Assembly (NCBI RefSeq): GCF_004361695.1
Contig: NZ_SNVW01000005.1
Coordinates: 62,001-126,000 of the forward strand
Length of the DNA stretch: 64,000 bases
Source of the DNA: Curtobacterium flaccumfaciens
Lineage (GTDB): Bacteria; Actinomycetota; Actinomycetes; Actinomycetales; Microbacteriaceae
Direction of reading: 5' to 3'
Shown: piece by piece, positions 5,778-30,180 of the stretch
Position numbering within the stretch: position 1 is the stretch's first letter
Layout: each line of letters opens with the position of its first letter
Translations under genes and position numbers: made by a program
The notes under the pieces: generated by a model
What the model was told of the DNA's origin: nothing
Database searches by the model: none
Seen by the model: only the letters and a program-made list of their open reading frames with translations

Positions 5778-5779
5778 CG

Positions 5780-15264: not shown

Positions 15265-16589
15265 GCGTCCCCGACCCACCTCCCGCCCGGCACCGGCCCG
15301 GCCCCGACACCGCGCCGGTCTGGGTGCGCAACCCAGCGCTGGTGTTCGGGCTCGCCGGCGGGGTGTTCCTCGCCGGTCTCGCGCTCGTGACGGGGCGCCC
15401 CGAGCTCGCCGTCGTGGCGTTGCCGGCGCTCGTGGCCGCCGGGTTCGGCGCCCGTCCGCGGCTCGGCCGAGCGCCCCTCCGGGTGGTGACGACGCTCGAG
15501 CCGTCCGACTCGGGCCGCGGCGTCGGCTACCGGACGGAGATCGCACTGCCGCCGTCTGCCGAGGCCGTCGCCCTCGAGCTCCGCGTCGCGGGCGACCGAC
15601 GACACGTCGTCGTGGTCGATCGCCGGACGGCTGCGAAGCTCGTCGGGACCGTCCCCGTCTCGCACTCCGGGCCCCAGGAGATCCTCCGGACGCACGTCTC
15701 GCTGCTCGGACGGGGCGGCACCGCGGTGTCGGTACCCGCCGCGGGACCGATCGCCGAGGCGGTCGTCCCGCCACCGCACCTCCGCATGCAGCACCTGCCG
15801 ATGCCGCACCGCGTGACGGGGATCACCGGCGCGCACGACTCCGCCCGACCGGGCGACGGCGGTGAGTTCCGCGACGTCGCCCTGTTCGCGCCCGGGGACC
15901 GCCTCCGACGGATCGACTGGCGGCGCACCGCACGTCGCGCCGAGCGCGTCGGGGACCTCTACGTGCGACGGACCTTCGCCACCGCGGACGCGCTCGTCGT
16001 CCTCGTCGTCGACGGCCGCGACGACCTCGGCTCCGACGTCACGGAGTGGGGCGGCTCCCGCCACCGCGCGCACGGCGCGACGTCGCTCGACCTCGCGCGC
16101 GAGGCCGCCGTGTCCCTCGCGACCGCGTACATCTCCGCCGGCGACCGGGTTGGCTTCCGCGGTCTGGCCGGTACCGCGCGCTCGGTCGAACCCGGCGGCG
16201 GCACACGGCACCTCGAACGGCTCCGATCGACGATCGCCTCGGTGACCCCGACCGGCGACGCGACCGAGGCGGCACGGATGCCCCTCGTGCCGGCCGCGTC
16301 GCTCGTGGTCGTCCTGTCGACGTTCCTCGACGACCAGGCCGCCTCGATGGCGATGACGTGGGCCGCCACCGGTCACCGGGTCGTCGCGGTGGACGTGCTG
16401 CCGACGCCGGACCTGCGCCGGGCGAGCAAACACGAGCGCGCGTCCTTCCGGCTCCTCGCCCTCGAGCGCGACGACCGGCTCGCGGAGATGGCCGCCACCG
16501 GCGTCGAGCGGATCCGCTGGCAGACCGGCGACGACGGCTCCCCCGCCGTGCAGCTCCGGCTCCTCAGTCGCCCTCGGCGGGCCGGATGA
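15261..16589 (+). CDS. DUF58-domain protein
   Basis: A 442-aa protein with an N-terminal membrane hairpin (LVFGLAGGVFLAGLALV and LAVVALPALVAAGF). Its central DUF58 signature is GGEFRDVALFAPGDRLRRIDWRRTAR. A VWA-like Rossmann segment follows: DALVVLVVDGRDDLG, then DLAREAAVSLATAYISAGDRVGF. The GTG start overlaps the MoxR stop. DUF58 proteins are the usual partners of MoxR ATPases. It is probably a membrane-tethered cytoplasmic component of unknown exact function. Confidence 0.88.
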   Translation: MSVPDPPPARHRPGPDTAPVWVRNPALVFGLAGGVFLAGLALVTGRPELAVVALPALVAAGFGARPRLGRAPLRVVTTLEPSDSGRGVGYRTEIALPPSAEAVALELRVAGDRRHVVVVDRRTAAKLVGTVPVSHSGPQEILRTHVSLLGRGGTAVSVPAAGPIAEAVVPPPHLRMQHLPMPHRVTGITGAHDSARPGDGGEFRDVALFAPGDRLRRIDWRRTARRAERVGDLYVRRTFATADALVVLVVDGRDDLGSDVTEWGGSRHRAHGATSLDLAREAAVSLATAYISAGDRVGFRGLAGTARSVEPGGGTRHLERLRSTIASVTPTGDATEAARMPLVPAASLVVVLSTFLDDQAASMAMTWAATGHRVVAVDVLPTPDLRRASKHERASFRLLALERDDRLAEMAATGVERIRWQTGDDGSPAVQLRLLSRPRRAG

Positions 16590-17122
16590 GGCTCGGCTCG
16601 CGAGCAGAACGGGCCGGGGCGCCGTCGATCGGCGCTGCCGTCCCCGCGTGGACGATCGGTGCGCTCGGCCTCGTCGCGGGGATCACCGGGTCCGCCGTCG
16701 TCATCGGAGCGAGCGGGTGGCTCGTCGTCGCGGTCCTCCTCGCCGTGGCCGCCGCACTCCTGCCCCGCGGTCCGTTCGCCGCCCTGCTCGTGGTGCAGCT
16801 CGCGATCGCAGGGCTCAGCGGAACGAGCCTGCCGCTGCTCCTCGTCACGACGCACCTCGTCCTCGCCACGAGCCTGCTCTGGGCGTGGACGCCGCCGACC
16901 GCCCGCGTGCAACTCCGGTCGCTCCTGCCGTCGGCGCTGCGGTTCGCCGCGGTGCAGGCGGGGACGCAGGCGGTGGCGTTCATCGTGGTCGCGCAGTTCG
17001 GCGGCGCCGGGTCCATCGGGGGCGTGTGGCTCGCGGTGGCCGGCGCGGTCGCGCTCCTCGCACTGGCGCTCGGCCTGTTCGTGCCGACGCTGCTGCGCGT
17101 CGAAGGCGATGCCGAGGGCTGA
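16586..17122 (+). CDS. Hypothetical polytopic membrane protein (last gene of MoxR operon)
   Basis: A 178-aa protein, almost entirely hydrophobic, with five to six predicted membrane helices. Examples are AWTIGALGLVAGITGSAVVI, WLVVAVLLAVAAALLP and VAGAVALLALALGLFVPTLL. No family is recognised. The ATG overlaps the DUF58 stop (ATGA), which makes it part of the same transcript. A role as membrane anchor for the MoxR/DUF58 complex is a positional guess. Confidence 0.68.
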   Translation: MRLGSRAERAGAPSIGAAVPAWTIGALGLVAGITGSAVVIGASGWLVVAVLLAVAAALLPRGPFAALLVVQLAIAGLSGTSLPLLLVTTHLVLATSLLWAWTPPTARVQLRSLLPSALRFAAVQAGTQAVAFIVVAQFGGAGSIGGVWLAVAGAVALLALALGLFVPTLLRVEGDAEG

Positions 17123-17425
17123 CCGGCGGAGCGCCGTGCGAGGGGCTGCGTCATCAGAGGACGACGCGGCCTTTCATCCCGGCGCGGCGAAGCGCTGTCT
17201 CGTCTTTCAGATGAGCACCGTTGCGATGACCATGACAGGGAACACCAGCAGCAGCTCACCTGTCCGACGTTCGCAAGCTGCCGAAACCACGAAACCGGTG
17301 GTTCCGGGCGAGCGACGCGGTGGGCGAAGTCCGCGACGAGGGACGGGTCATGCTCGCGCAGGACGACCGGGAGCCGATCGACCCGCGCACCATCCCGCGG
17401 AGTTGCCCGCACGTACCATGACGCC
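17123..17425. other. 303-bp gap without a convincing gene
   Basis: No complete gene with a start signal is seen here. Frame 1 on the plus strand is open from 17236 to 17419 and reads like a protein C-terminus (RWFRASDAVGEVRDEGR, then MLAQDDREPIDPRTIP), but it lacks a start codon. The minus strand is also open. Base composition looks slightly lower in GC than the flanks. It may hold a decayed gene. Confidence 0.4.
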
Positions 17426-17956
17426 ATGCCTGGGGATCAGAAGAAGAACGCCGACGGGCGGTACGCGGGGAGCAACTACCGGTACAGCGACCGGTTCATC
17501 AAGGTCGTCACCGGTTGTCTCATCGCGTGGATCTTCGTCGGAACTGGCCTCGGGTTCGCGCTGGGCGCGCTGGGCGACGTGTTCTTCCAGGGCGAGTACG
17601 GCCCGCAGACACCTGACTGGTACAGCCGCACGGCCGCGGCGATCGCCTTGAGTGGCGTGGTCTTGCCGCTGGTCGCAGGAGCGGTCCTGGGAGCGCTCGC
17701 GATCAACAAGTACGCCGCTCCGGTTGCGGTGCTGCTGCTCGCGGCCATCGGGTCGTTCATCTACGGCCGGGTCGTCGACGGGCAAGGAGTCTGGATGCTC
17801 TACGGGGTCGCTGGTGGCGTCGTTGCTGTCGCGCTGTTCTTCTCCATCGGGCTCCAGGCGAGGGTGCCCGTGTGGCTGCAGCTCCCCGGCCTGAACTCTC
17901 CACGTGTCCATCTCACAAGAGGCGATCCCGACGACAGCAAGCCCCCGCACAGGTGA
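17426..17956 (+). CDS. Hypothetical four-helix membrane protein
   Basis: A 176-aa protein. A polar N-terminus (MPGDQKKNADGRYAGSNYRYSDRF is its general character) is followed by four membrane helices: VVTGCLIAWIFVGTGLGFAL, AIALSGVVLPLVAGAVLGAL, APVAVLLLAAIGSFIYG and MLYGVAGGVVAVALFFSIGL. A short charged tail ends the protein. No family is recognised. It lies just upstream of, and codirectional with, the blaI promoter, but has about 30 bp separating it from that promoter, so it is probably independent of the regulator. Confidence 0.65.
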   Translation: MPGDQKKNADGRYAGSNYRYSDRFIKVVTGCLIAWIFVGTGLGFALGALGDVFFQGEYGPQTPDWYSRTAAAIALSGVVLPLVAGAVLGALAINKYAAPVAVLLLAAIGSFIYGRVVDGQGVWMLYGVAGGVVAVALFFSIGLQARVPVWLQLPGLNSPRVHLTRGDPDDSKPPHR

Positions 17957-17987
17957 CGAATCGTTCGCACCGCCGTTCTTCCGCTCG

Positions 17988-18025
17988 TTGACCGAGCGTG
18001 GTCCTGATTGCTACGTTGAGTCGCA
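17988..18025 (+). promoter_or_regulatory. blaI promoter with overlapping BlaI operator
   Basis: A -35 TTGACC (17988-17993) and a -10 TACGTT (18012-18017) are separated by 18 nt. The expected start point coincides with the ATG at 18025, so the transcript is probably leaderless. The -10 is inside an imperfect dyad, TGCTAC-5 nt-GTCGCA (18009-18025), whose arms and spacing match the perfect dyad at 19418. This implies autorepression. Confidence 0.72.
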
Positions 18026-18420
18026 TGTCAGTCGGGCCGAACGGACTCGCGGGCCAGTTCGGGCCGCTCGAGTTCGCGATCCTCGAAGCGCTCTGGGCCG
18101 GCGGAGAGTCGTCCGTGGGCGAATGCGCCGAGCGACTGAGCGGTGGCCAGGCGTACACGACGGTCAAGACCGTGATGGAGCGGATGACCGTGAAGGGGCT
18201 TCTCCTGCGGCGCAAGGAGTCCCGTGCCTACCGGTACAGCGCAGCGCGGACGCGTGACGAGATGAACCGAGACGCAGCGGAGCGGTCGAGCCGCGAGCTC
18301 CTCGCCGGGTTCGGCAGTGTCGCGGTGAGCAGCTTCGTGGACGCGATCGATCCGAGCTCGCCGGAGTTCGACGACCTGGTCGCGCGGCTCCGGGCCGTCG
18401 CCGGGCGGACCGAGGAGTAG
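18025..18420 (+). CDS. blaI: BlaI/MecI-family transcriptional repressor
   Basis: A 131-aa winged-helix repressor. The DNA-binding half is LEFAILEALWAGGESSVGECAERL followed by AYTTVKTVMERMTVKGLLLRRKESRAYRY, the family signature. The C-terminal helices (RELLAGFGSVAVSSFVDAI) form the dimerisation arm. BlaI repressors are inactivated by proteolysis when a membrane M56 protease senses envelope damage, and such a protease gene follows 28 bp downstream. No SD site is needed if transcription starts at the ATG, as the promoter suggests. The likely targets are its own gene and the ABC-SARP operon. Confidence 0.92.
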   Translation: MSVGPNGLAGQFGPLEFAILEALWAGGESSVGECAERLSGGQAYTTVKTVMERMTVKGLLLRRKESRAYRYSAARTRDEMNRDAAERSSRELLAGFGSVAVSSFVDAIDPSSPEFDDLVARLRAVAGRTEE

Positions 18421-18448
18421 ACGGCGCCGAGCGCGTTGGGGGATGCAC

Positions 18449-19357
18449 ATGGACTTCGGAGTGATCGGTTACCCGCAGGTGCTGCTGGGGCTCTGGGGGC
18501 CCCTCGCCCTCCGCGCCGCGTGGTTCGTGTGGACCCGCCGCGGTGCCGCCAACGTCGCACCCGCCACGCGGGCACTCGTCACCGCAGCCGTCGCCATCGC
18601 GCCGCTCGTGGCGCTCTTCGTGCCGTTCGAGCCGTCGACACCGCTCCGCGACGCCTTGCCCTGGCGCGCACCCATCGCCTGGGGCATCGCGATCGCACCG
18701 CCTGCCGACGCCGAGCGGTCGCCGGTCGGACTGGTGCTCATGCTGTTCGCGGTCGTGCCCGTCGTCTCCGTCCTCGTGTCGTTCGCGATCGGTGTCGTCG
18801 AGGTGGTGGTGTCGCGGTGCCGACTCGCCCGTCTCGAGACCGGTCGCCGAGGGGGACTGCGCCTCATCGCCGAGAACGACAGTCTGACCGCGTGCGTGGC
18901 TGGCCTCGTGGTGCCACGGGTGTACATCACGGAGTCGACACTCCGCGGTCCGCACTCGTCGGCAGTCATCGCGCACGAGCGCGCGCACCAGCGTCGTCTC
19001 CACCCGCTCCTCAAGTGGACCGTCGGGTGCGCGCTCCGCGCGTGGTGGTGGATCCCCGGTGCTCGGGCGATGCGGCACGACCTCGTCGTCTCGACCGAAC
19101 TCTGGGCCGACGATGCGGCGAGGCGACGCGTCGGCGACCGTGCGGTCGCGTCGGCGCTGCTCGGTTCGATGGAGCACGCCGGCGTGGGCGGGCTGCGGAC
19201 GGCGGTCTCGGTGGCCGGTCTCGTCGGCGCGGAGAGCGTCCTCGGAATGCGCGTCGGAGCGCTGTGCGTGCCGGTGCGTGCTCGCCGCCCCGTCGAGCGG
19301 GTCCTCGTGCCGGTGTTGCTCCTCGGCTCGCTCGTCCTCTTCGTCCTCCTGTTCTGA
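18449..19357 (+). CDS. M56-family membrane protease (BlaR1-like, no sensor domain)
   Basis: A 302-aa membrane protease. The zinc motif is VIAHERAHQRRLHP with H176, E177 and H180, and the second motif is STELWADDAA (E-x-x-A-D). Two helices precede (LLGLWGPLALRAAWFVW and ALVTAAVAIAPLVALFV), one lies near residue 100 and one at the C-terminus (VLVPVLLLGSLVLFVLLF). The penicillin-binding C-terminal domain of BlaR1 is missing, so the signal is not obviously a beta-lactam. ATG 18449 is preferred because a GGGGG site lies 5-6 nt upstream; ATG 18443 is also in frame. It forms a sensor-repressor pair with BlaI. Confidence 0.87.
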   Translation: MDFGVIGYPQVLLGLWGPLALRAAWFVWTRRGAANVAPATRALVTAAVAIAPLVALFVPFEPSTPLRDALPWRAPIAWGIAIAPPADAERSPVGLVLMLFAVVPVVSVLVSFAIGVVEVVVSRCRLARLETGRRGGLRLIAENDSLTACVAGLVVPRVYITESTLRGPHSSAVIAHERAHQRRLHPLLKWTVGCALRAWWWIPGARAMRHDLVVSTELWADDAARRRVGDRAVASALLGSMEHAGVGGLRTAVSVAGLVGAESVLGMRVGALCVPVRARRPVERVLVPVLLLGSLVLFVLLF

Positions 19358-19417
19358 GCCGTCTGTTCTGAGCCCCCTGGCGTTCCGCCGTCCCGAACCC
19401 GCCGGCGAAACCCCCAT

Positions 19418-19436
19418 CTGCTACTTTGTGTAGCAG
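19418..19436 (+). promoter_or_regulatory. Perfect BlaI-type operator upstream of the ABC-SARP operon
   Basis: CTGCTAC-TTTGT-GTAGCAG is a perfect 7-bp inverted repeat with a 5-nt spacer. This is the layout of BlaI/MecI operators (TAC...GTA core). A possible -10, TACTTT (19422-19427), is embedded in it, so binding would block transcription of the operon starting at 19474. No clear -35 was seen. Confidence 0.75.
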
Positions 19437-19473
19437 TTCGCATCGGAGCGAGCGTGGACGGAAGGGGACCACG

Positions 19474-20229
19474 GTGGACCATGCAGCAGCGACGGGGTGG
19501 GAGCGCGGCACGGGGACGATGGTGGGGAAGCCGGTCGCGGAGACCGGCGGGCTCACGAAGCGCTTCGGCCGGACAGTGGTGGTCGACGGCGTCGACCTCG
19601 TGGTGCGACCCGGCACCGTGTACGGCCTGCTCGGGCCGAACGGCGCGGGCAAGAGCACGACGCTGAAGATGATGCTCGGTCTCCTCAAGCCGACCTCGGG
19701 CGGGGTCGACCTGTTCGGGGAGCCGTGGAACCGCGCCGCACTCGGCCGCATCGGTGCGAGCGTCGACGGCCCGGGTCTCTACGAGCACCTCTCCGCCGCG
19801 CAGAACCTCGGCGTGCACGCGGAGCTGCTCGGACTCGATCGGGGCGGGATCGACACGGCCCTCGACATCGTCGGCCTCGCGCACACCGGACGGAAGGCCG
19901 TCCGGCACTTCTCCCTCGGGATGAAGAGTCGCCTCGCGCTGGCAGTGGCTCTGCTCGGCGAGCCGGAACTCGTCATCGTGGACGAACCCCAGAACGGGCT
20001 CGACCCGGAGGGGATCGCCGCGACGAGGCGGCTCCTGCGGTGCATCGCGGACTCCGGTCGCACCGTGTTGCTGTCCAGCCACGTGCTCGCCGAGGTCGCC
20101 GCAGTCGCGGACGACATCGGCGTCATGGCCGCGGGCCGGCTCGTCTACCAGGGGTCACTGACGGACCTCGCGCCCGACGGCGACCTCGAGCGGGCGTACT
20201 TCGCGCTCACCGCTGGCGGTGTGCGGTGA
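19474..20229 (+). CDS. ABC transporter ATP-binding protein (bacitracin/lantibiotic-export type)
   Basis: A 251-aa ATPase. Walker A is GLLGPNGAGKSTTLKMMLGLL, the signature is HFSLGMKSRLALA, and Walker B is ELVIVDEPQNGLDPEGI. The switch histidine lies in VLLSSHVLAEVAAVADDIGVM. Close resemblance to BcrA/LanF-type ATPases is apparent, including SLGMK instead of LSGGQ. GTG 19474 is chosen because a GAAGGGG SD site lies 6-7 nt upstream; ATG 19519 is an alternative. The stop overlaps the permease start. Given the BlaI operator upstream, it is a candidate self-protection pump for the nearby lanthipeptide. Confidence 0.87.
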   Translation: MDHAAATGWERGTGTMVGKPVAETGGLTKRFGRTVVVDGVDLVVRPGTVYGLLGPNGAGKSTTLKMMLGLLKPTSGGVDLFGEPWNRAALGRIGASVDGPGLYEHLSAAQNLGVHAELLGLDRGGIDTALDIVGLAHTGRKAVRHFSLGMKSRLALAVALLGEPELVIVDEPQNGLDPEGIAATRRLLRCIADSGRTVLLSSHVLAEVAAVADDIGVMAAGRLVYQGSLTDLAPDGDLERAYFALTAGGVR

Positions 20230-21752
20230 GCACGATGACCGGTGTCGCTCCCCTGCCGCGGGTGGTCGGTGCCGAGGCACTGCGGTGGCGGCGCGACGTG
20301 GCCGCATGGCTGCCGTTGGGCGGAGTCGTCATCGGCGCCGGTCTCGGCGTGCTCTCCGGTGGAGTCCACGCCGGGCCGGGATGGGGCGCCGTGCTGGCGT
20401 GGCTCAACCCGTGGGCGGTCTTCGTCGGACCGATGCTCGCCGTGCTCGTCGTCGGTGTCTCCGTCGCGGGCGATCGCACGTGTCGCGGCGGTGGGACCTG
20501 GTGGCGGCCGGTCGACGCCCTCCGTGCGGACGTGGCGAAGCTCGCGGTCGCAGCCGTGTTCCTCCTCGCGATGGACCTGCTCGCGGTCCTCGGGGTCCTC
20601 GGCATCGGGGCGACGCGTGCCAGCGGTGCGTTGCCGGTGCTCCGGGTCCTCGCGGTCGTGGTCGTGCTCTGGTCCGGGTCGCTCTGCGTGGCCGCGATCG
20701 GTCTCCGGGTGGCTCGACGGCTCGGCGTGCTCGCGGGGCTCGGCGTCGGCGTCGTGTGGTGTGTCGTCGGGGCCCTCGCCGCCGAGGGCAGCGCGGCGCT
20801 GTTCGTCCCCCCGGCGTGGGCGGTCCGCGCGACGATCCCGCTCCTCGGGACGCACGCGAACGGCGTCCCGCTCCCGGAGTCCTCCACCCTGCAGTCGATC
20901 CAGCCGCTCCCCCTCGCGCTCGCCTGCATCGTGCTGGCCGTCGTGATCGTCGTCGTACGCCTCCCGCAGGCACGCCCGTCCGGGATCTCGCACCGCTCCG
21001 GTCGACGTCGGCCCGACGCCGGTGGAGCCGGCGCAACGGCACCACCGCGGGCGCTCGACGCCCGCGAACGCGGAGCCGAGCCGGTCGAACGCGCGGTCGG
21101 CCGCCGGGCAGTGCGTCCCAGCGCGGCCGGTGCGGTGACCGCGTCGCTGCGACGCACCCCGGTCTGGATCCTCCCGGTCGGATCGGTCGCGCTCTGTCTC
21201 CTCATGACCCGGTGGCAGGCGCCGGATCGAGTCCTCGTGATCGTCCCCGTGCTCGTCGTGCCCGTCGTCGCGTTCGTCGCGCCGATGGTCCTGTGGGGAC
21301 GGCAGCGGCCGGCGTGGCGGGCGATCGCGAGTCGGACGGTGCCGATCGAACGGGTCGCACACGCCCTCGCCCTCACGAACGCGGTGCTCGCCGCCGTGTC
21401 CGTCGTCGTTCCGCTCGTGGTGCTCGGCGTCCTCGCCGAGGCGCGGCCGGCGCGGGTGCTGCTGCTCGCCGGTCTGGGCTGTCTGGCCGTCCTGGCGGTG
21501 TCCGCCTGGCAACTCGTCCTCGAGATGACCGTCGGGCGCGTGGTGGCACTCGCCGTGGGGATCGTCGGCACGTTCGTGTCGCTGCTCATCGGCGGCAGCG
21601 GGCTCGGGACGGTCTTCTGGACCGTCGATCCGTGGTCGTGGGGCGCTTTCGGCGCGCCAGCACAGATGGTCCTGACGGTCCCGGTCATGCTCGCCGCCGT
21701 GGTCCTCGCGTGGTTCGTGATCGCCCGGTGTGGACGGCGGGCAGCCGCGTGA
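20226..21752 (+). CDS. ABC-2-type permease, probable lantibiotic/immunity exporter subunit
   Basis: A 508-aa membrane protein with about twelve helices in two blocks of six. The blocks are split by a polar Arg-rich linker near residues 250-310. The first block includes WLPLGGVVIGAGLGVLSGGV and AVFLLAMDLLAVLGVLGIG. The second starts at PVWILPVGSVALCLLM and ends VMLAAVVLAWFVIARC. This looks like a fused or duplicated LanE/LanG-type permease. GTG 20226 overlaps the ATPase stop, and its own stop overlaps the SARP start, so the three genes are cotranscribed. The substrate is inferred from context only. Confidence 0.75.
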   Translation: MSTMTGVAPLPRVVGAEALRWRRDVAAWLPLGGVVIGAGLGVLSGGVHAGPGWGAVLAWLNPWAVFVGPMLAVLVVGVSVAGDRTCRGGGTWWRPVDALRADVAKLAVAAVFLLAMDLLAVLGVLGIGATRASGALPVLRVLAVVVVLWSGSLCVAAIGLRVARRLGVLAGLGVGVVWCVVGALAAEGSAALFVPPAWAVRATIPLLGTHANGVPLPESSTLQSIQPLPLALACIVLAVVIVVVRLPQARPSGISHRSGRRRPDAGGAGATAPPRALDARERGAEPVERAVGRRAVRPSAAGAVTASLRRTPVWILPVGSVALCLLMTRWQAPDRVLVIVPVLVVPVVAFVAPMVLWGRQRPAWRAIASRTVPIERVAHALALTNAVLAAVSVVVPLVVLGVLAEARPARVLLLAGLGCLAVLAVSAWQLVLEMTVGRVVALAVGIVGTFVSLLIGGSGLGTVFWTVDPWSWGAFGAPAQMVLTVPVMLAAVVLAWFVIARCGRRAAA

Positions 21753-22357
21753 CCGACGACCTGCTCGACCTCGATCTCGGCTCCGCACCGCGGCCGTCCG
21801 AGATGCCCGACGTCCGTCTGCTGGGCCGCCCGACGGTCAACGCCAAGCAAGTGCGGTCGACGAAGCCGCTGGAACTCGTCGCAGCGGTGGCACTCGCCGG
21901 TGGCCGGTACTCCCGGGACGGACTGGTCTCGGGCATCTACGGAGGCGAAGCGTCCGATTCGGCGCTCCCCACGCTCGCCTACCGCGCTCGCCTCCTCGGG
22001 CTCCCCGTCGAGTACGACCCGTACACCGGGTTCTACGCCCTGACGAGCGCGATCTCGCTCGACGTCGTGGACGTGCTGCGGCTCTCGGCCGCCGGACGCG
22101 CGAGTGATGCGCTGTGTCTCTACCGCGGACCGTTCCTCCCGCGGAGCGGGAGCCCGTTCGCCGCGACGCTCCGTGCGGAGATCGACAACGCCGTCGCCCA
22201 GGCGGCGCTGGCCACGGGCGACCAGCGCGTGATCGAGTACGCGGCGCGAGCGGTCCTGCACCCGATGCTCGCGGACGCCGTCCGTCGCGCTCGACCGGAC
22301 GTCGCCTCGACCGTGCTCGGCGCGGCGTACCTGCGCGGCATCGGTGCGACCTCGTGA
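21749..22357 (+). CDS. Small SARP-like transcriptional activator (wHTH plus short BTAD domain)
   Basis: A 202-aa protein with an OmpR-type winged helix: VRLLGRPTV, KPLELVAAVALAGGRYSRDGLVSGIYGG, then TLAYRARLLGLPVEYDPYTGFYAL. A truncated bacterial transcriptional activation domain follows (ALCLYRGPFLPRSGSPFA and AARAVLHPMLADAV). This matches Streptomyces antibiotic regulatory proteins, though shorter than the usual 250-280 aa and with no ATPase or TPR module. GTG 21749 overlaps the permease stop. SARPs bind direct heptamer repeats 11 bp apart; such repeats occur just downstream, before lanA and lanB. It is the probable pathway activator. Confidence 0.75.
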   Translation: MTDDLLDLDLGSAPRPSEMPDVRLLGRPTVNAKQVRSTKPLELVAAVALAGGRYSRDGLVSGIYGGEASDSALPTLAYRARLLGLPVEYDPYTGFYALTSAISLDVVDVLRLSAAGRASDALCLYRGPFLPRSGSPFAATLRAEIDNAVAQAALATGDQRVIEYAARAVLHPMLADAVRRARPDVASTVLGAAYLRGIGATS

Positions 22358-22372
22358 CGTCCGGAGCGGAAC

Positions 22373-22416
22373 TGTGATGGGGGTGTGAAGGGGGTGCGAC
22401 CCATCGCCGCGACAGT
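22373..22416 (+). promoter_or_regulatory. Triple 11-bp direct repeat (SARP box) and putative lanA promoter
   Basis: Three repeats start at 22373, 22384 and 22395: TGTGATG, TGTGAAG and TGCGACC, exactly 11 bp apart and the first two each followed by GGGG. Spacing of 11 bp is the hallmark of SARP sites. Sixteen bases from the start of the last repeat lies GACAGT (22411), at the same distance as TACGGT in front of lanB. The -10 assignment is weaker than the repeats. Confidence 0.68.
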
Positions 22417-22418
22417 GG

Positions 22419-22446
22419 TTCCGACGGGCCGACCGGCCCGTCGGAA
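22419..22446 (+). promoter_or_regulatory. Perfect hairpin upstream of lanA
   Basis: TTCCGACGGGCC, a 4-nt GACC loop and GGCCCGTCGGAA form a perfect 12-bp stem, followed by TCCTCGTTG. It could terminate read-through from the ABC-SARP operon, or stabilise the 5' end of the lanA message if transcription starts before it. It overlaps the expected lanA start point, so the role is ambiguous. Confidence 0.65.
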
Positions 22447-22455
22447 TCCTCGTTG

Positions 22456-22469
22456 AAAGGGGGGTGGAG
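22456..22469 (+). promoter_or_regulatory. Unusually strong lanA ribosome-binding site
   Basis: AAAGGGGGGTGGAG lies directly before the ATG at 22470, with the AAAGGGGGG core about 5 nt from the start. It is much more purine-rich than other sites in this window. It supports both the start choice and high-level translation of the precursor. Confidence 0.75.
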
Positions 22470-22640
22470 ATGAGCAACAGCGACTTCGATCTCGACCTGC
22501 AGGTCGAATCGACCAACGCGACGGTGACGCCGCAGATCACCAGCGTCTCGCTCTGTACGCCGGGTTGCCCGACGGGCGGCTTCGCGTGCTTCACGGCGGC
22601 GTGCACCGGTGGGTGCACGATCTCGTCGTCCAGCGCCTGA
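22470..22640 (+). CDS. lanA: Nisin-like class I lanthipeptide precursor
   Basis: A 56-aa precursor. The leader (residues 1-22) has the class I recognition box FDLDLQV at 6-12 and ends VTPQ, a plausible cleavage site (Pro at -2). The 34-residue core begins ITSVSLCTPGC, identical to nisin residues 1-11 except Val4 for Ile4. It continues PTGGFACFT, AACTGGC and TISSSSA. Five Cys (core 7, 11, 18, 23, 27) can pair with Ser3, Thr8, Thr13, Thr20 and Thr24. Ser5 and Thr2 would be dehydrated as in nisin. The core contains no Lys, Arg, His, Asp or Glu. The function is predicted: lipid II binding and antibacterial activity. Confidence 0.9.
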   Translation: MSNSDFDLDLQVESTNATVTPQITSVSLCTPGCPTGGFACFTAACTGGCTISSSSA

Positions 22641-22656
22641 CGGCAGCGATGCGCAC

Positions 22657-22694
22657 GACGGCCGATCGCCCACGGGCGGTCGGCCGTCTTCGTT
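22657..22694 (+). terminator. Attenuating terminator between lanA and lanB
   Basis: GACGGCCGATCGCC (22657-22670), a 4-nt loop and GGCGGTCGGCCGTC (22675-22688) form a 14-bp stem with one G-U pair, followed by TTCGTT. It lies 17 bp after the lanA stop. It would keep precursor mRNA in excess over the modification-enzyme mRNA, a common arrangement in lantibiotic operons. Confidence 0.75.
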
Positions 22695-22712
22695 CCTCCG
22701 GGGTCTGCCAAC

Positions 22713-22745
22713 TGTGATCGTCGTGTGAATCGTGGACCGTACGGT
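22713..22745 (+). promoter_or_regulatory. SARP-type direct repeat and leaderless lanB promoter
   Basis: AACTGTGAT and GTGTGAA recur here exactly as before lanA, with TGTGAT at 22713 and TGTGAA at 22724 (11-bp spacing). A -10 TACGGT (22740-22745) places the transcription start at or next to the ATG at 22752. A palindrome GACCGTACGGTC (22735-22746) covers the -10. Confidence 0.7.
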
Positions 22746-22751
22746 CTGGCC

Positions 22752-25700
22752 ATGACGGACGCAGAACTCGAGTCGATCGGCATCGCGATGATCCGCATGC
22801 CGTTCTGGTCAACACGGCGGCTGGAGGCCCTGTCCGGCTTCGATCGACCCGACGAGGTCGTGCCGGTCCTGTGGGAGGATCCCGACTTCCGCCGGGCCGT
22901 GCGCATCAGCAGCCCGAGACTCGCCGCGGACGCGGACTGGGCGACGTCGACCGCCGCGGTACCCGGCAAGCGGCTCCGCGGGGTCGGTCTCGCGCTCCTC
23001 CGGTACGCGATCCGGATGTCGAGCCGACCGACACCGTTCGGCGCCTTCGCGGCCGTGGGCACCGTCCCCACCGAGACCGGCTCCGACGACGCCGTGACGA
23101 CCGTCCACTCCACCGGGTTCCGGAGCCGGCACCGGATCGGCTCCGGCGCGGCACAGGGCGCCGTCCTCGCGACCGAGCGCGAGGCGCTGGAGGAGCTCGA
23201 GGTCATGATCAACCCGACGGTCCACCGCAGGTCCGACCGTCTGGAACTCCTCGTCAACGCGGCACAGGACCGGGAGACAGCGCACGACCTCCTCTCGGTG
23301 CGCTGGACGCCCGCGGTCGAGAAGACACTCGAACTCGCTGCCGGGCCGATCCGAGCAGACGCCCTCATCCGCGCACTCGTCGGCGACGGGGACGGGGAGA
23401 TCCGCACTCGCGTCGAGTCGTTCGTCCGCACGCTCCTCGGGCGCGGCTTCCTCGTCTCGAGCGCCCGTGCGTCGTTGACCGACAGCGGCGCAGTGGAACG
23501 CGTCGCCCCCCTGGAACCGACCGGCGACCTGCGACGGACGGTGGATGCACTGGACCGCGGAGAACTCGACGACGCCGCGCTCGAGGACGTCTTCCGCTCG
23601 CTCCGGCCCTTCGTCGACTCGGAGACGCAGGAGATGCTCCAGGTCGACGTCGCCGCAGCCACCGAGGGAGTCGTGTCCGGCCGCCTCGTCGACCGGATCA
23701 CCGCGGCGGCGACGGCGCTCACCCTCCTCTCGCCCGCACCGGGCCGATCGCCGGAGCTGCGCGACTACGCCTTCGCGTTCCAGGAGCGGTACGGCCGGCG
23801 GGAGGTCCCCGTCACCGAGCTCCTCGACGAACTCGTCGGTCTCGGATTCCCGCACGGGTACCCGGGCTCGAACCGACCCGCGCCGCCCCGGTTCGACGAG
23901 CGGTGGGAGGCCGACCTCGCGATCCTCCGGCGTCGGCTGACCACCCGCGCCGAGGTCGTCGACGGCATCCCGCACAGCGAACTCCTCGACGCGGACCTGA
24001 CGCCGTTCCGCACGCGCGGCGACCGGCCGCCGGCGTCGCTCGACGTGTTCGCACTGATCGGGGGCACCGACGACCCGGACGGTGCGACGATCGCGCCGGT
24101 CGGGGCAACCACCCCGGCGGGCGCTGCGTTCGGTCGCTTCGACGCGATCCTCGACGACGTCACCGCGGTGCTCCACGGCGGCAGCGAGCTCGAGCTCGCC
24201 GCGCAGACCGACACCCGGTTCTGCCACGTCGACTACCTCAACCCACGGCCCCACATGAACAACGTTGCGTTCGCGCCACAGCAGTTCGACACGGTCATCC
24301 CACTGACGAGCACCGCCCACGCGGGCACCCCCGGCGCACTCCCGCTCGCCGACGTCCTGGTCGGCTGGGCCGACGGCTTCCACCTCCGGAGTGCGAGCAC
24401 CGGCGCGCGGATCATCGTGCGGAACCCGAACATCCTCAACCGCGTCACGCAGCCGGGGCTCGTCCGGTTCCTGCTCGACGTCTCGGACGACGGCACGGCG
24501 AAGCCGGGCTGGGCCTGGGGTGCGCACGAGGAGCACGTCGACGTGCTCCCACGCATCGTCCACAACGGCATCACGATCGCTCCCGCACAGTGGCGGCTGC
24601 CGGAGACGGCCGGGGACCGCGACGAATCCGTGGCCGCGCTCCGCACGTGGCGGACGAAGCACGGCGTCCCGCGCCGGGTGTACGTCGGTGTCTACGACAA
24701 CCGGCTGCTCGTCGACCTCGAGGACGATCTCCAGACAGAGGTGCTCCTCCGCGAGCACCGGGCAGGCGCCGCCTGGGTGCAGGAGGGTCCGGAGACGCTC
24801 GACTCCCCCACCGTCACCGGACCGGACGGGCAGCCGCGGCTCGCCGAGATCGTCCTGCCGTTGCGGCGCCGGACGGTCGAGCCGCACCCACCGCTGCCGC
24901 CCCGACGCGGATCGGTCGGCACGTCCGTCCCGCAGCCGTCGCCCGGAGCCGACCCACTCGCGGCGAGCGCGGCGCGCGGCCTGCGCGAACGATGCGCACC
25001 GGGCGTCGAGTGGTGGTCGTTCCGGATCGCCGGACGACGGAAGGACCAGGACGACGTCCTGCGCGCCATGACCGCGGCCGCGACGACGGCCGGTGCCGAC
25101 TTCTTCTTCGTGCGCTACAGCGATCCCGAGGACCACGTCCGGTTCCGCGTCCGTGCCACGACGGCACCGGGTCCGGTGTTCGCGTGCGCCGGTGACCTCC
25201 TGTCGTCCGGTCGGGTGTCGGACGTCTCACTCCGGTCCTACGACCGCGAGGTCGAGCGGTACGGCGGCAGGGCGGTCTTCCCGAGGTGCGAGACGTTGTT
25301 CTGCCGGACGTCGCTGGCCACCGTCGGGCTCCTCGCGGCGCTGCCCGGCGAGCACGACGAGGACGGCGACCGCACGACGGCCGGGGCGTTCGTGGTCGAC
25401 GCCTTCCTGCAGGGTCTCGGTGTCGGCGCCGAACGGTCCAGCGGTCTCCTGCAGGGCATGGCGGCCGGGTACGCGATGGAGTTCGCCGAGGAGGGTCCGG
25501 CCCTCCGCCGTGCGGTGCAGCGTGCGCGTCCCCTCCGGCGACCGGCGCTGGCCGCACTCATGGCATCGCGGGAGTCCGGCGCTCCGGGGGCGCTCGTGTC
25601 GGGGCCGCTCGTGACGGGGGCGACCGCCCTCGCCGCAGCAGCCGTCCACGACGGACCCGCGATCGTCGACGACGTGTTCGCCGCCGGTGACGACACGGCG

Positions 25701-25847
25701 TTCGGGGTGCTGAGCAGCCTCGTGCACATGCAGGCGAACCGACTCGGGTTCACCCGCCAAGAGGAGTACCAGATCGTGCTCGTCCTGCTGGACGGGCTCG
25801 CTGCGCGGAAGCACCGCGCGGCAACGGAGCAAGGGGGAGTTCGATGA
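22752..25847 (+). CDS. lanB: Full-length class I lanthipeptide dehydratase (LanB)
   Basis: A 1031-aa glutamyl-tRNA-dependent dehydratase that converts core Ser/Thr to Dha/Dhb. The glutamylation domain shows RMSSRPTPFGAFAAVG with R88, R92 and T94, matching NisB R83, R87 and T89. NPRPHMNNVAFAPQQFD appears later in that domain. The C-terminal elimination domain (from about residue 750) has WWSFRIAGR, FFFVRYSDPEDHVRFRVRAT, YDREVERYGG and LVHMQANRLGF with H992, the equivalent of NisB H961. Both halves are intact in one chain. ATG 22752 fits the predicted leaderless promoter; an in-frame GTG at 22725 is less likely. The stop overlaps the lanC start. Confidence 0.93.
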   Translation: MTDAELESIGIAMIRMPFWSTRRLEALSGFDRPDEVVPVLWEDPDFRRAVRISSPRLAADADWATSTAAVPGKRLRGVGLALLRYAIRMSSRPTPFGAFAAVGTVPTETGSDDAVTTVHSTGFRSRHRIGSGAAQGAVLATEREALEELEVMINPTVHRRSDRLELLVNAAQDRETAHDLLSVRWTPAVEKTLELAAGPIRADALIRALVGDGDGEIRTRVESFVRTLLGRGFLVSSARASLTDSGAVERVAPLEPTGDLRRTVDALDRGELDDAALEDVFRSLRPFVDSETQEMLQVDVAAATEGVVSGRLVDRITAAATALTLLSPAPGRSPELRDYAFAFQERYGRREVPVTELLDELVGLGFPHGYPGSNRPAPPRFDERWEADLAILRRRLTTRAEVVDGIPHSELLDADLTPFRTRGDRPPASLDVFALIGGTDDPDGATIAPVGATTPAGAAFGRFDAILDDVTAVLHGGSELELAAQTDTRFCHVDYLNPRPHMNNVAFAPQQFDTVIPLTSTAHAGTPGALPLADVLVGWADGFHLRSASTGARIIVRNPNILNRVTQPGLVRFLLDVSDDGTAKPGWAWGAHEEHVDVLPRIVHNGITIAPAQWRLPETAGDRDESVAALRTWRTKHGVPRRVYVGVYDNRLLVDLEDDLQTEVLLREHRAGAAWVQEGPETLDSPTVTGPDGQPRLAEIVLPLRRRTVEPHPPLPPRRGSVGTSVPQPSPGADPLAASAARGLRERCAPGVEWWSFRIAGRRKDQDDVLRAMTAAATTAGADFFFVRYSDPEDHVRFRVRATTAPGPVFACAGDLLSSGRVSDVSLRSYDREVERYGGRAVFPRCETLFCRTSLATVGLLAALPGEHDEDGDRTTAGAFVVDAFLQGLGVGAERSSGLLQGMAAGYAMEFAEEGPALRRAVQRARPLRRPALAALMASRESGAPGALVSGPLVTGATALAAAAVHDGPAIVDDVFAAGDDTAFGVLSSLVHMQANRLGFTRQEEYQIVLVLLDGLAARKHRAATEQGGVR

Positions 25848-27154
25848 CCGACACAGCCGGGCTGCGGACGGCAGCCGTCCGCGACGCGCAGAGCATCGCC
25901 TGGGACACCGTCGCGCGGATCAGGGACGACGCGGAACGGGCGTCCCGACCGACGCCCGACGAGTTCACCGGACGGGTCGAGCCACGATGGCACCCGCTCA
26001 GCATCGACCAGGGCGACCTCGGCCTGGCGTTCATGTACGCGACCGCCGATCGGGTCGACCCGGATGCGGGATGGGACTCGAGCGCGCACCAGCACCTCTC
26101 GGCGGTCGGAGCGTCGTTCGGCTCGGTCGGACCGATCGGGCCGGGCGTCTTCGGCACCGGCGCGGTCCTCCTCGCGTTCCGGGCCCTCAGCCGAGGCGGT
26201 GCGCGGTACCAGCGCGCCGAAGCAGAGGCGGAGCGGGTGCTCCGGGAACGCCTCCGCTCGCTCCTGCGGTCGAGTCCGCTCCGTGGCGGCCTCCCGACGG
26301 CGGCGTTCGACGTGGCATCGGGCGTGGCCGGCGCACTCATGACCGGACTCACGACGGCCGGCTCCGACCCGAGCGCGCACCAGATGGTCGCCGAAGCCGC
26401 GGCCGCCCTCTCGATCTGGGCCCGACAGGCGGCGCCGGAGGGGCTCTGGACACCGCAGACCGGGGTGACCGACTTCGATCGGGCGCACCGCCCGGAGGCC
26501 GCGAGCGGCTACATCGACCTCGGGTACGCCCACGGTGTCCCCGGCGTGCTCGCGGCGCTCGGCGGGGCTCGTCGTGCCGGGATCGCGGTCGACGGACTCG
26601 ACGACGCCGTCGATCGCCTGCGGGCGGAGCTCACGGCCGACCTGATCGACACGAGATGGGGTGCCGACGTCCCGTACCGACGCACGGCCGCGGTCTACGG
26701 CGAGTACCTGCCGGCCAGGACCGCGTGGTGTTACGGGGGCCCGGGCGTCGCCCTCGCCCTCGCCGTGAGCGCACGTGACGCCGGTGAACTGGGGGTGTCG
26801 GAGAAGCTGTGGCGCAGCAGCGTGGACCGGCCCCGCGCGGCGCGGAACACTGCCGCCGCCGGCATCTGCCACGGCACGGCCGGGCTGCTGCTGGTCGGCC
26901 GTGCCCTCCGCCGCGCCGGCCTCGAGGTGCCGGACTCCGATCTCGACCGACTCGTGGGCGAGATCATCGACGATCACGACGACGGAAGCCGGTACGGGTT
27001 CCGAGACCTCGACCACCACGGCGTCGCGTTCGACTCGGCAGGCTTCCTGCAGGGTGCAGCCGGCGTCGCGGCGGCCCTGCTGTCGATCACGGCGGAGGCC
27101 CCGTCGCCCGCGGAGACCGTCTTCACGGGGGTGGCCGATGTTCGAGCTCGCTGA
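25844..27154 (+). CDS. lanC: Lanthionine cyclase (LanC)
   Basis: A 436-aa zinc enzyme that adds Cys thiols to dehydrated residues to form lanthionine and methyllanthionine rings. The zinc ligands are Cys296 in AWCYGGPG and Cys342-His343 in GICHGTAGLLL. The conserved YAHGVPGVLAAL with His230 (like NisC His212) is also present. The seven-fold repeat pattern GxxG/GAAG is visible across the chain. ATG 25844 overlaps the lanB stop, and the gene overlaps the following ABC ATPase by 17 nt, giving a lanB-lanC-ABC operon. Confidence 0.93.
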   Translation: MTDTAGLRTAAVRDAQSIAWDTVARIRDDAERASRPTPDEFTGRVEPRWHPLSIDQGDLGLAFMYATADRVDPDAGWDSSAHQHLSAVGASFGSVGPIGPGVFGTGAVLLAFRALSRGGARYQRAEAEAERVLRERLRSLLRSSPLRGGLPTAAFDVASGVAGALMTGLTTAGSDPSAHQMVAEAAAALSIWARQAAPEGLWTPQTGVTDFDRAHRPEAASGYIDLGYAHGVPGVLAALGGARRAGIAVDGLDDAVDRLRAELTADLIDTRWGADVPYRRTAAVYGEYLPARTAWCYGGPGVALALAVSARDAGELGVSEKLWRSSVDRPRAARNTAAAGICHGTAGLLLVGRALRRAGLEVPDSDLDRLVGEIIDDHDDGSRYGFRDLDHHGVAFDSAGFLQGAAGVAAALLSITAEAPSPAETVFTGVADVRAR

Positions 27155-28025
27155 CGTCGCCGTCCGGTACCCCGGGGCGCCGGCCGATGTCTTCTCCGGT
27201 GTCGACCTGGCGCTCCCGGACGGCACCCTCATGGTGCTCGTGGGGCCGAACGGAGCGGGCAAGACGACGCTGCTCCGCGCCATGTGCGGCCTGATCCGCC
27301 CGACGAGCGGACGTATCGAGATCGACGGGTGCGACGTGGTGGCGCACCCCGACCGGGCTCAGCGCAGCTTCGGTGTGTCGCTCTACCCCGAGCGCAGCTT
27401 CTACTTCCGCCTGACGGCGCGGCAGAACCTCCGCTACTTCGCGGCACTCCGCGGGCTCGGTCGTCGCGACGCGATCGCCGAGGTGGACCGCGTGCTCGCC
27501 GTCGCCGGACTCGAGGAACACACGGAGCTGCCGTTCATGCGACTGTCGCTCGGACTCCGGAAGCGGCTCGGCTTCGCACGGGCGCTCCTCGGCACGCCGA
27601 GCACGCTCCTCCTCGACGAGCCACTCGCGAACCTCGATTCCGCGAGCGCCACCGCCGTCGTGGAGCACCTCGCCTCGCTCCGGGATGCGGGCCACCGGGT
27701 GGTCCTGTCGACGCACGAGGCGAGCGGCGTCGCGTCCCTGGTCGACATCGTCGGACAGCTCCGCGACGGGCGCCTCACGACGACCGACGAACGCACCGCG
27801 CTCGTCCTCGGCAAGACGGTGATGGTCGAGACCGAACCGGCACCGGACCCCGGAGTGCTCGTGCCCGGCTGGGCGACCACCTCGTACGGGTTCTCCCGGA
27901 TGGTCGGCGCGGACGAGGACATCACGCCGCTCCTCACCACGCTCGGCGCGGCCGGCTTCCGCGCGGTCCGCATCGGCACCCGCCAAGAGGCCTCCGTGCT
28001 CCCCGTCTCGGAGGTCCTCGTATGA
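27138..28025 (+). CDS. ABC transporter ATPase of the lanthipeptide operon
   Basis: A 295-aa ATPase. Walker A is VLVGPNGAGKTTLLRAMCGL, the signature is RLSLGLRKRLGFARAL, and Walker B is TLLLDEPLANLDSASA. A C-terminal extension of about 70 residues resembles the regulatory tail of BcrA-type ATPases. It starts inside the lanC 3' end and its stop overlaps the permease ATG. In context it either exports the modified peptide or provides immunity. It has no C39 peptidase domain, so it cannot remove the leader itself. Confidence 0.88.
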   Translation: MFELADVAVRYPGAPADVFSGVDLALPDGTLMVLVGPNGAGKTTLLRAMCGLIRPTSGRIEIDGCDVVAHPDRAQRSFGVSLYPERSFYFRLTARQNLRYFAALRGLGRRDAIAEVDRVLAVAGLEEHTELPFMRLSLGLRKRLGFARALLGTPSTLLLDEPLANLDSASATAVVEHLASLRDAGHRVVLSTHEASGVASLVDIVGQLRDGRLTTTDERTALVLGKTVMVETEPAPDPGVLVPGWATTSYGFSRMVGADEDITPLLTTLGAAGFRAVRIGTRQEASVLPVSEVLV

Positions 28026-28834
28026 CGGCCCTCGAGCAGCTGCGGATGGTGCTGGTGCGGTCCGTCTGGGAACGTCGGACCTACCGGACCGCGATGCTGC
28101 TGGGCGTGGTGACCGCCGTCATCGGCTGCCTCCAGTTCGCGATCATGGGCAAGTTCCTGCAAGCGGGCAACTCGTTCCCCGGGCTGCAGGCCTACGGCGG
28201 GGACATCCTCTCGTTCCTGCTCACCGGATCGATCTTCACCGGCTTCGTGAACATCTCGCTCGGCACGTTCTCACGGTTCGTCCAGAACGAGCAGCGGTCC
28301 GGGACGCTGGAGTCGCTGGTGGTGTCGAACGTCTCGCTGCTGCGCCTGATGATCTACCACGGCGTCGTCGGCATGGTCGGCACGGTCGTCAGCTCAGCGG
28401 TGATGCTCGTCGCGTTCGGGTTCGTCTTCCACGTTCCCTTCGACATCGACGTCTGGGCGTCCGCGCTCGTCCTCGTGGTCCTCGTGCTGACGATGGGCAG
28501 TCTCGGCCTCGCGGGGTGCGGCGTCCTGCTCGTCACGAAGCGCGGCGACCCGATCACGTGGGTCCTCACGACGCTGACGGTCCTCATGTCCGGGGTGCTC
28601 TACCCGACGTCGGTCCTGCCGCCCTGGATGTCCGCGACCGCGCAGTGGCTCCCGACGACCCGTGCTCTCGATGCGATGCGCCTGACGCTCGGTTCGCACG
28701 GCGGCGTCTCGGCGGTCGCCCCGGACCTGCTCGTCCTGGCGGTGTGGTGCCTCGTCGCGATGCCGGTCGGCGTGTGGACGTTCCGGACCGGGCTCCGACG
28801 AGCGCGCCGAGCGGGGTCGCTCGCCGAGTTCTGA
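28022..28834 (+). CDS. ABC-2-type permease of the lanthipeptide operon
   Basis: A 270-aa permease with six membrane helices: AMLLGVVTAVIGCLQFAIMG, LLTGSIFTGFVNISLG, GMVGTVVSSAVMLVAFGFVF, ASALVLVVLVLTMGSLGLAG, TTLTVLMSGVLYPTSVLP and LLVLAVWCLVAMPVGVW. The motif GTLESLVVSNVSLL between helices 2 and 3 is typical of ABC-2 exporters. The ATG overlaps the ATPase stop. It is the last gene of the lanB operon; after it a convergent LacI gene begins. Confidence 0.85.
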   Translation: MTALEQLRMVLVRSVWERRTYRTAMLLGVVTAVIGCLQFAIMGKFLQAGNSFPGLQAYGGDILSFLLTGSIFTGFVNISLGTFSRFVQNEQRSGTLESLVVSNVSLLRLMIYHGVVGMVGTVVSSAVMLVAFGFVFHVPFDIDVWASALVLVVLVLTMGSLGLAGCGVLLVTKRGDPITWVLTTLTVLMSGVLYPTSVLPPWMSATAQWLPTTRALDAMRLTLGSHGGVSAVAPDLLVLAVWCLVAMPVGVWTFRTGLRRARRAGSLAEF

Positions 28835-28886
28835 GCCGCCGCGTCGACCCCGGCGACGGAGCGCGACCGGTCCCGACTCGCTCGAC

Positions 28887-30071: not shown

Positions 30072-30080
30072 AAGCGCGAC

Positions 30081-30180
30081 ACGCACAGCACGACCCGCGC
30101 AGCACGACCCGCGCAGCAGCACGCACAGCACGACACTCACAGCACGACCCGCGCAGCGGCACGCACAGCACGACACCAGC
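30081..30180 (+). repeat. 40-bp tandem repeat, about 2.4 copies
   Basis: ACGCACAGCACGAC recurs at 30081, 30121 and 30161, a strict 40-bp period. The first two units are almost identical. Each also contains an internal AGCACGACCCGCGCAG, so there is a shorter sub-repeat. The third copy decays after about 18 bp. It fills the space between the LacI-type operator and the MFS gene and may lie in that gene's 5' untranslated region. Confidence 0.8.

Follow-up and report, generated by a model that had tools for sequence, protein, structure and literature searches.

A nisin-type lanthipeptide gene cluster with a charge-free core peptide in Curtobacterium flaccumfaciens

The ten-gene block and its precursor peptide

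The window, by which we mean the whole 64-kb stretch of Curtobacterium flaccumfaciens DNA that was analysed, contains a conserved block of ten genes on the plus strand, and within this block lies a short open reading frame, lanA, that the original prediction had taken for the precursor gene of a nisin-type lanthipeptide. The genes of the block and the two parts of the precursor are as follows.

17998..18420, plus strand: BlaI/MecI/CopY-type repressor (PF03965, 4.7e-19), the first gene of the conserved block
18443..19357, plus strand: M56-type membrane metallopeptidase, the repressor's partner (PF05569 at 4.3e-4, under cut-off; 4 hydrophobic windows)
19426..20229, plus strand: ATPase of an immunity-type ABC system (LanF-like; dN/dS 0.065)
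20226..21752, plus strand: permease partner of the immunity ABC system (508 aa; 12 hydrophobic windows; dN/dS 0.212)
21749..22357, plus strand: possible divergent SARP-like regulator (202 aa), between the permease gene and lanA
22470..22640, plus strand: lanA, 56-aa precursor from an ATG, recognised by its open reading frame, family models and dN/dS
22470-22535, plus strand: lanA leader MSNSDFDLDLQVESTNATVTPQ, 22 aa, FDLD-type
22536-22637, plus strand: lanA core ITSVSLCTPGCPTGGFACFTAACTGGCTISSSSA, 34 aa
22752..25847, plus strand: lanB, full-length dehydratase with glutamylation and elimination domains, 1031 aa from the ATG at 22752
25844..27154, plus strand: lanC, lanthionine cyclase, 436 aa (PF05147, 1.1e-34)
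27132..28025, plus strand: ABC transporter ATPase (PF00005), the probable export half
28010..28834, plus strand: ABC-2 permease partner (274 aa; PF01061, 1.6e-12; 5 hydrophobic windows)

The precursor scored above the cut-offs of TIGR03731 (gallidermin/nisin; 50.6 bits against 29.3, E 1.4e-13 in the NCBIfam search), of NF038155 (FDLD class I lanthipeptide; 33.3 bits against 20) and of PF02052 (Gallidermin; 25.7 bits against 21), and a GTG at 22464, two codons 5' of the ATG, reads as an alternative start. The FDLD sequence (FxLD box) occupies residues 6-9 of the leader, which ends in Pro-Gln. Two other peptides, one encoded on a Priestia megaterium plasmid (L009) and one epidermin-like, from another genome of the phylum (L013), have leaders with the same ending; because the -PQ/ITS pattern recurs in these two peptides, the border between leader and core was placed at this point. 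The first eleven core residues, ITSVSLCTPGC, depart from those of nisin A at position 4 alone, in line with the single difference given in the original prediction, and the same eleven are present in the Priestia megaterium plasmid precursor; within them, SVSLCTPGC (core residues 3-11) agrees with SxxxCTP(G/S)C, the lipid II motif as it is worded in the text of PMC7268733. The core comprises 34 residues, of which 5 are Cys, 12 are Ser or Thr and none (0/34) is Lys, Arg, His, Asp or Glu, and it ends SSSSA, with no C-terminal CC and no Trp. The original prediction had thus described correctly the nisin-like length and cysteine count, the charge-free composition and the four-serine tail, whereas its estimate of 10-11 waters to be lost needs correcting, since the core has 12 dehydratable residues. 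The calculated monoisotopic mass of the core is 3157.35 Da unmodified and 2941.23 Da once 12 waters are lost, and ring closure leaves it unaltered. When charge was tallied over 10 peptides, which took in 2 of the 26 plasmid records matched, the only ones with no charged residue were the window peptide, its counterpart in Curtobacterium sp. VKM Ac-2922 and NAI-107. A chance open reading frame, which was considered for lanA, is ruled out by the family models over cut-off and by dN/dS, and the precursor has all the gallidermin/nisin family features that could be checked in its sequence.

A separate two-domain LanB and a LanC adjoin lanA. The lanB product, read from the upstream GTG start at 22725, matched PF04738 at 1.5e-107 and PF14028 at 2e-34, and its best match in the PDB was 5ehk (1.8e-41), which we take to be MibB, followed by 9g04 (6.8e-41) and, at a greater distance, NisB (1.4e-22). 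The motifs RxxxRxTPFG, GRF, RYSDP, EVERYGG and VHMQANR, which presumably have catalytic roles, were all found in LanB. The chain paired with it in 9g05, together with the text of PMC12241602, indicates that 9g04 would be MadB. LanC in turn was closest to MadC (8byk, 3.8e-22) and matched NisC at 1.1e-4, and it holds the zinc-ligand motifs AHG, WCYGGPG and CHG, the roles of whose residues are described in PMC9889658. The ATPase encoded at 27132..28025 had its top NCBIfam score with drrA, under the cut-off of that model, and belongs to the conserved block. Searches of the ten block genes against Pfam and NCBIfam gave no family match for LanP, a fused LanT, LanI or a two-component system, and none for a flavoprotein family; maturation and export were assigned by default, because no dedicated leader protease or fused LanT was recognised among these genes. 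Nisin production depends on two-component autoinduction, and the present block differs from the nisin system in that no family match of the NisP, NisT, NisI or NisRK type was obtained for its ten genes. Four block genes that were compared with defence-system models gave no match.

Upstream of lanA, the ATPase encoded at 19426..20229 had its top NCBIfam score with TIGR03740 (lantibiotic protection ABC; 244 bits, E 1.4e-72, under the cut-off of 309.75), and the 508-aa protein beside it, for which Pfam gave no match, is possibly a fused LanE/LanG. The M56-type peptidase carries an HExxH motif (HERAH) at residue 178; together with the BlaI-type repressor (17998-19357) it might sense cell-wall damage and relay it to immunity, or it might be the missing leader protease. 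The family score of the precursor and the adjoining LanB, LanC and ABC pair bear out the assignment to the nisin-type lanthipeptides, and by all its sequence features the cluster is a real, intact class I lanthipeptide cluster of the nisin/gallidermin type.

Occurrence and purifying selection

The peptide was found in 2 of the 66 genomes of the genus Curtobacterium, its own included. The second genome, that of Curtobacterium sp. VKM Ac-2922, has the block (18008-28834) colinear over all ten genes at a DNA identity of 86.4%, and its precursor is identical at 55 of 56 residues, with 5 synonymous differences and 1 non-synonymous difference. The sole residue change, from Val4 to Phe, falls within ring A, of which positions 4-6 are variable according to PMC10257480. 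Between the two species dN/dS was 0.040-0.212 over all ten genes and 0.059 for lanA, and the ten-gene block is under purifying selection. That the cluster is dead, or that the open reading frame is a chance match, is therefore an extremely improbable reading: the failure to recognise a leader protease in the block would fit it, but all ten genes are open and show the dN/dS values just given, the family match of the precursor is strong (E 1.4e-13) and the promoter boxes described below are conserved.

Two side observations concern the same comparison. Of the 41 synonymous sites in lanA, 5 differ, whereas the remaining nine genes differ at 31% of theirs (binomial 0.004), and the scarcity of such changes in lanA perhaps indicates an RNA-level constraint. 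MoxR/DUF58 genes adjoin the block in both species (window 13617-17123; VKM Ac-2922 locus 16581-20168); because the neighbourhood is the same and the orientation opposite, the block was either flipped or inserted twice near one place. In addition, a tandem repeat at 30073-30176 (40-bp unit, 2.4 copies, 92% matches, 14-bp sub-period) lies directly before the gene of an MFS transporter.

Outside the genus, such precursors were rare. At E <=0.001, TIGR03731 matched a single genome among 398 of the family, and three genomes each among 396 of the order and 396 of the phylum; of these, 1, 2 and 2, respectively, scored above the curated cut-off, and every count includes the genome of the window. The other matches were L011, which has no LanB; L012, which is NAI-107-like and under the cut-off; L013, the epidermin-like peptide mentioned above; and L014, also under the cut-off, which was discarded because its frames show no sensible peptide. 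A LanB search of 297 genomes of the order returned its own genome and two others at 32-34% identity, of which the one at 32% is the L012 genome; no nisin-type precursor was seen beside the LanB of 34% identity. The NAI-107-like precursor of L012 and L017, in the same order, contains ITSVIFCTEGCTSPNTGSGCSFCC, in which Glu replaces the Pro of CTPGC, and stands beside a LanB (L026). Weak matches of profile A1 (L019-L023; one in 35 and four in 197 genomes around L011, besides L011 itself) were dismissed as chance on reading the frames, and the viral contigs searched gave no match.

The match without LanB deserves separate mention. This more distant relative, from another family of the same order, encodes ITSKFLCAPGCPTGGIACFTAQCANGCGISVGCKW after an acidic stretch that has no clear start; its core lies at about 9497-9601 on the minus strand of locus L015, and an immunity-type ABC system lies at 7405-9411, with an ATPase whose top NCBIfam score was TIGR03740, under the cut-off, and with two membrane-like proteins nearby. 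Across the 16.6 kb that were read, no LanB was found; a gene for a Mutator-type transposase lies at 4846-6138, about 3.5 kb off, beyond the ABC genes. Relative and window peptide have CPTGGxACFTAxCxxGC in common; however, because the relative has Ala at positions 8 and 24, it could form neither ring B nor a ring between Thr24 and Cys27. The relative looks like a remnant and gives the last of the rings discussed below no support. It is possible that immunity has been retained at this locus without production.

Twin direct-repeat boxes and a candidate regulator

Two boxes of direct repeats, each followed by a -10-like element, and two strong inverted repeats were found in the intergenic regions before lanA and lanB.

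22372..22404, plus strand: lanA promoter box, 11-bp direct repeats CTGTGAT-N4 and GTGTGAA-N4 with a degenerate third, GTGCGAC-N4
22411..22416, plus strand: -10-like hexamer GACAGT of a putative lanA promoter, 6 nt past the last repeat
22417..22448, plus strand: strong inverted repeat 5' of lanA, 14-pair stem, loop GACC (folding z -4.2, 0/200 shuffles as good)
22657..22688, plus strand: strong inverted repeat between lanA and lanB, 14-pair stem (folding z -3.6, 0/200 shuffles as good)
22712..22733, plus strand: lanB promoter box, two 11-bp direct repeats CTGTGATCGTC GTGTGAATCGT
22740..22745, plus strand: -10-like hexamer TACGGT of a putative lanB promoter, 6 nt past the box, kept in VKM Ac-2922

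The 64-kb window has two copies of TGTGA-N6-TGTGA, where 0.04 would be expected, one 5' of lanA and one 5' of lanB, and VKM Ac-2922 has two at the corresponding places. When up to 2 mismatches were allowed, AACTGTGATNNNNGTGTGA matched the lanA and lanB boxes and no other place in the 3.8-Mb genome, and the reversed control matched nothing; with 3 allowed in the 19-base repeat pattern, 4 out of 100 shuffled versions of the window also gave two matches, although both real sites have 0 mismatches. As for the -10-like hexamers, TANNNT accounts for 0.027% and NANNNT for 1.6% of the hexamers in 17900-29000, and in VKM Ac-2922 GACTGT replaces GACAGT at the same distance. The predicted transcription start of lanB coincides with its ATG, which centres the lanB box at -29.5; for lanA the predicted start is 22423.

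Both boxes show the layout of SARP targets, namely direct repeats of 11-bp period directly before a -10-like element. SARP activators bind such repeats; the 22-bp box of afsS has its centre at -29.5, and 8 bp separate the 3' AfsR repeat from the -10 element (PMC5930380 and PMC10936776); the distance here is 6 nt when counted from the 11-bp repeat and 10 from the heptamer, against the 8 of the AfsR paper. The likeness to SARP activators of antibiotic clusters such as AfsR and PimR lies in the direct repeats of 11-bp period before the -10 element, although the heptamer of PimR is CGGCAAG and that found here is [CG]TGTGA[AT]. SARP control of a lantibiotic is known from CinR1/KyaR1, the activators of cinnamycin-type lantibiotics (PMC6974636); among the matches listed for SARP and lanthipeptide in the literature, no title named a nisin-type cluster, which is weak evidence of absence.

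The 202-aa protein encoded directly before lanA is the candidate activator for these boxes. It had no Pfam match and no NCBIfam match over cut-off, and a search of its own genome for BTAD domains, with E up to 10, gave four rows that do not include it, which counts against an easy assignment to the SARPs. Compared with a profile of 21 SARP domains, however, it scored 32.5 (E 2.6e-4), colinear over 152 columns, a weak match from a single comparison, against at most 19.8 for 40 shuffles and 11.8 for the reversed sequence. Its AlphaFold model is poor (pLDDT 41.7). The gene was found in 2 of the 66 genus genomes, the same two as the peptide, and its dN/dS of 0.040 is the lowest in the block. The protein may be a divergent SARP activator, distinguished from the SARPs of other antibiotic clusters in being too divergent for the Pfam BTAD model and in belonging to a nisin-type cluster, and the twin boxes with this possibly SARP-like neighbour probably constitute a dedicated activator circuit.

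The possible SARP-like protein and the BlaI/M56-type pair in the block, and the restricted occurrence of the peptide (2/66), would also suit a product that serves its producer as a signal or morphogen; yet the lipid II motif is intact and the immunity-type ABC system points to an antibiotic, and we regard a signalling role as improbable.

The inverted repeats differ in their conservation. In VKM Ac-2922 the repeat 5' of lanA is altered in its 5' arm, whereas the second repeat, which separates lanA from lanB, keeps the same stem and differs only in its loop. Hairpins that set the lanA:lanB ratio occur in other lantibiotic operons, and the second inverted repeat may do so here. Scans of 17900-29000 for sigma-70 promoters and terminators, and an Rfam search of the window, found nothing.

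Ring pattern, relation to known lantibiotics and mode of action

For residue comparison we used the sequence of nisin A, in which rings B, D and E have i,i+3 spacing and the interlocked rings D and E arise from the motif TxTCxC. Nisin A and the window peptide share a length of 34 residues, 5 Cys, the sequence of rings A and B with one change, and class I enzymes. They differ beyond ring B: nisin has Lys12, a longer ring C, the NMK hinge, the TxTCxC motif and charge, whereas the window peptide has TAACTGGC in place of TxTCxC, a Thr13-Cys18 spacing one residue shorter than that of nisin ring C and, where nisin has its three-residue hinge, only Phe19 between Cys18 and Thr20. The two i,i+3 spacings Thr20-Cys23 and Thr24-Cys27 lie in succession and are not interleaved. 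The original prediction had described the missing hinge and the three spacings correctly. Once rings A and B are assigned as in nisin, the simplest and likeliest pairing of the remaining residues would be Thr13 with Cys18, Thr20 with Cys23 and Thr24 with Cys27.

Among precursors of solved structure, the closest (E 1.1e-9) is chain C of PDB 9g05, of the maddinglicin type (MadA of Clostridium maddingley), and its alignment with the window precursor shows a shared FDLD leader, a shared start ITSxSLCTPGC and a C-x-T after ring C; the shorter spacing of ring C and the lack of a hinge are common to both as well (for maddinglicin, PMC9889658). In contrast, maddinglicin and geobacillin I contain 7 Cys, with four C-terminal rings that are intertwined, as predicted for the former and shown for the latter (PMC9889658), and a lysine at position 4 (for maddinglicin, PMC10257480), whereas the window peptide has 5 Cys, no lysine or other charge, and a serine tail. 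A lipid II binder with other C-terminal rings, larger or overlapping among Thr13, Thr20, Thr24, Cys18, Cys23 and Cys27 after the manner of geobacillin or maddinglicin, is a rather unlikely alternative, to which two facts lend weight: among the solved cyclases LanC is nearest to MadC, for whose product intertwined rings are predicted at the C-terminus, and the more distant relative lacks Thr24. Nevertheless, there are only 5 Cys in the window peptide, and its Thr and Cys residues pair in order with known spacings (i,i+5 as in maddinglicin and i,i+3 as in nisin rings B, D and E), which speaks for the three separate rings.

NAI-107 (microbisporicin), whose dehydratase MibB we take to be 5ehk, the best PDB match of LanB, resembles the window peptide in being an actinobacterial class I product with CTPGC and no charged core residue; its published core, VTSWSLCTPGCTSPGGGSNCSFCC, is given in PMC10715042. 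It differs in having 24 residues, a C-terminal AviCys, chlorinated Trp and hydroxylated Pro (PMC10676316). In the NAI-107/planosporicin subgroup a LanD flavoprotein closes the C-terminal CC to AviCys, whereas the window peptide lacks the CC and its block showed no flavoprotein family. In at least one of the features tested, the window peptide departs from the nisin subgroup, from that of NAI-107 and from that of maddinglicin. Nisin-type precursors are known from the same phylum in Nocardia vaccinii, in Corynebacterium lipophiloflavum (flavucin) and in Bifidobacterium breve (PMC7268733, PMC12506125), and nisin-like clusters are described from 35 Actinomycetota genomes in PMC12506125 and from Nocardia in PMC7268733; flavucin has Lys4 (PMC10257480), unlike the window peptide.

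These comparisons decide how much of the claimed novelty stands. A charge-free core, the lack of a hinge, a shorter ring C and clusters of this kind in Actinomycetota all have precedents, and the claims of novelty have to be narrowed accordingly. A literature search for ITSVSLCTPGC gave no match, the main texts of PMC12506125, PMC7268733, PMC11251773, PMC3091789 and PMC11672506 do not mention Curtobacterium (0 occurrences), and in the paper listings and passages covered we found neither the trait combination nor the serine tail, the genus or twin direct-repeat promoters. The Curtobacterium peptides of PMC10456417 are lactococcin 972-like, and PMC11899604, which came up for Curtobacterium and lantibiotic, proved unrelated. 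Each unusual trait is thus precedented, while the combination, together with the gene switch, looks new.

With regard to the mode of action, nisin forms its cage around lipid II when backbone amides in rings A and B donate hydrogen bonds to the pyrophosphate (PMC10257480), and because these contacts come from the backbone, the cage needs no side-chain charge. Charge-free NAI-107 binds lipid II and reportedly impacts membrane functionality (PMC10676316); pore formation by nisin requires the hinge (PMC10257480); and maddinglicin, which has no hinge, is argued to form no pores in the texts of PMC12241602 and PMC9889658. On the strength of the backbone cage, the NAI-107 precedent, the need for a hinge and the case of maddinglicin, lipid II sequestration without nisin-type pores is the best reading. 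We have good confidence, from sequence and analogy, that the peptide is a lipid II-binding lantibiotic, and by the same analogies it would, somewhat less surely, form no pores of the nisin type. Its neutral, hydrophobic C-terminal half, which like NAI-107 has no charged residue, could instead damage the membrane after lipid II has been bound, as the effect reported for NAI-107 might suggest; but the peptide has neither hinge nor cationic tail, and no pores are predicted for hinge-less maddinglicin, so that membrane damage of this kind seems a comparatively unlikely outcome.

Our data suggest a model of lipid II sequestration whereby LanB would dehydrate Ser and Thr residues of the core and LanC would close five thioether rings, after which the ABC pair would export the peptide and a protease, for which no candidate was recognised in the block, would cleave behind Pro-Gln to remove the leader. 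The pyrophosphate cage of nisin would then be formed by ring A (Ser3-Cys7) and ring B (Thr8-Cys11), which would sequester lipid II, which would stop cell-wall synthesis in Gram-positive neighbours; with no hinge, no cationic residues and no interlocked D/E rings, the peptide would probably form no nisin-type pores, and the LanF-like ABC system would protect the producer. The possible divergent SARP-type activator would switch on lanA and lanB separately through the twin direct-repeat promoters. As a whole, this explanation, a nisin-type lantibiotic that inhibits through lipid II under possible SARP-type control, is in our judgement probable, with chemistry, binding, activity and regulation all inferred from the sequence. 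Its most specific form, in which a charge-free cage, three separate methyllanthionine rings and up to four dehydroalanines (S30-S33) make up a non-pore-forming product under SARP-type twin-promoter control, is put forward tentatively, as a possibility that may well fail in one of its parts.

Nisin combines lipid II sequestration with pore formation in one molecule. If the chemistry is as inferred here, the window peptide would show, in a naturally occurring molecule, what share of the activity is due to the cage by itself, and as a neutral scaffold it might be less dependent on the charge of the membrane. If the regulatory reading is true, the twin direct-repeat promoters would be a handle with which such clusters could be switched on in Microbacteriaceae.
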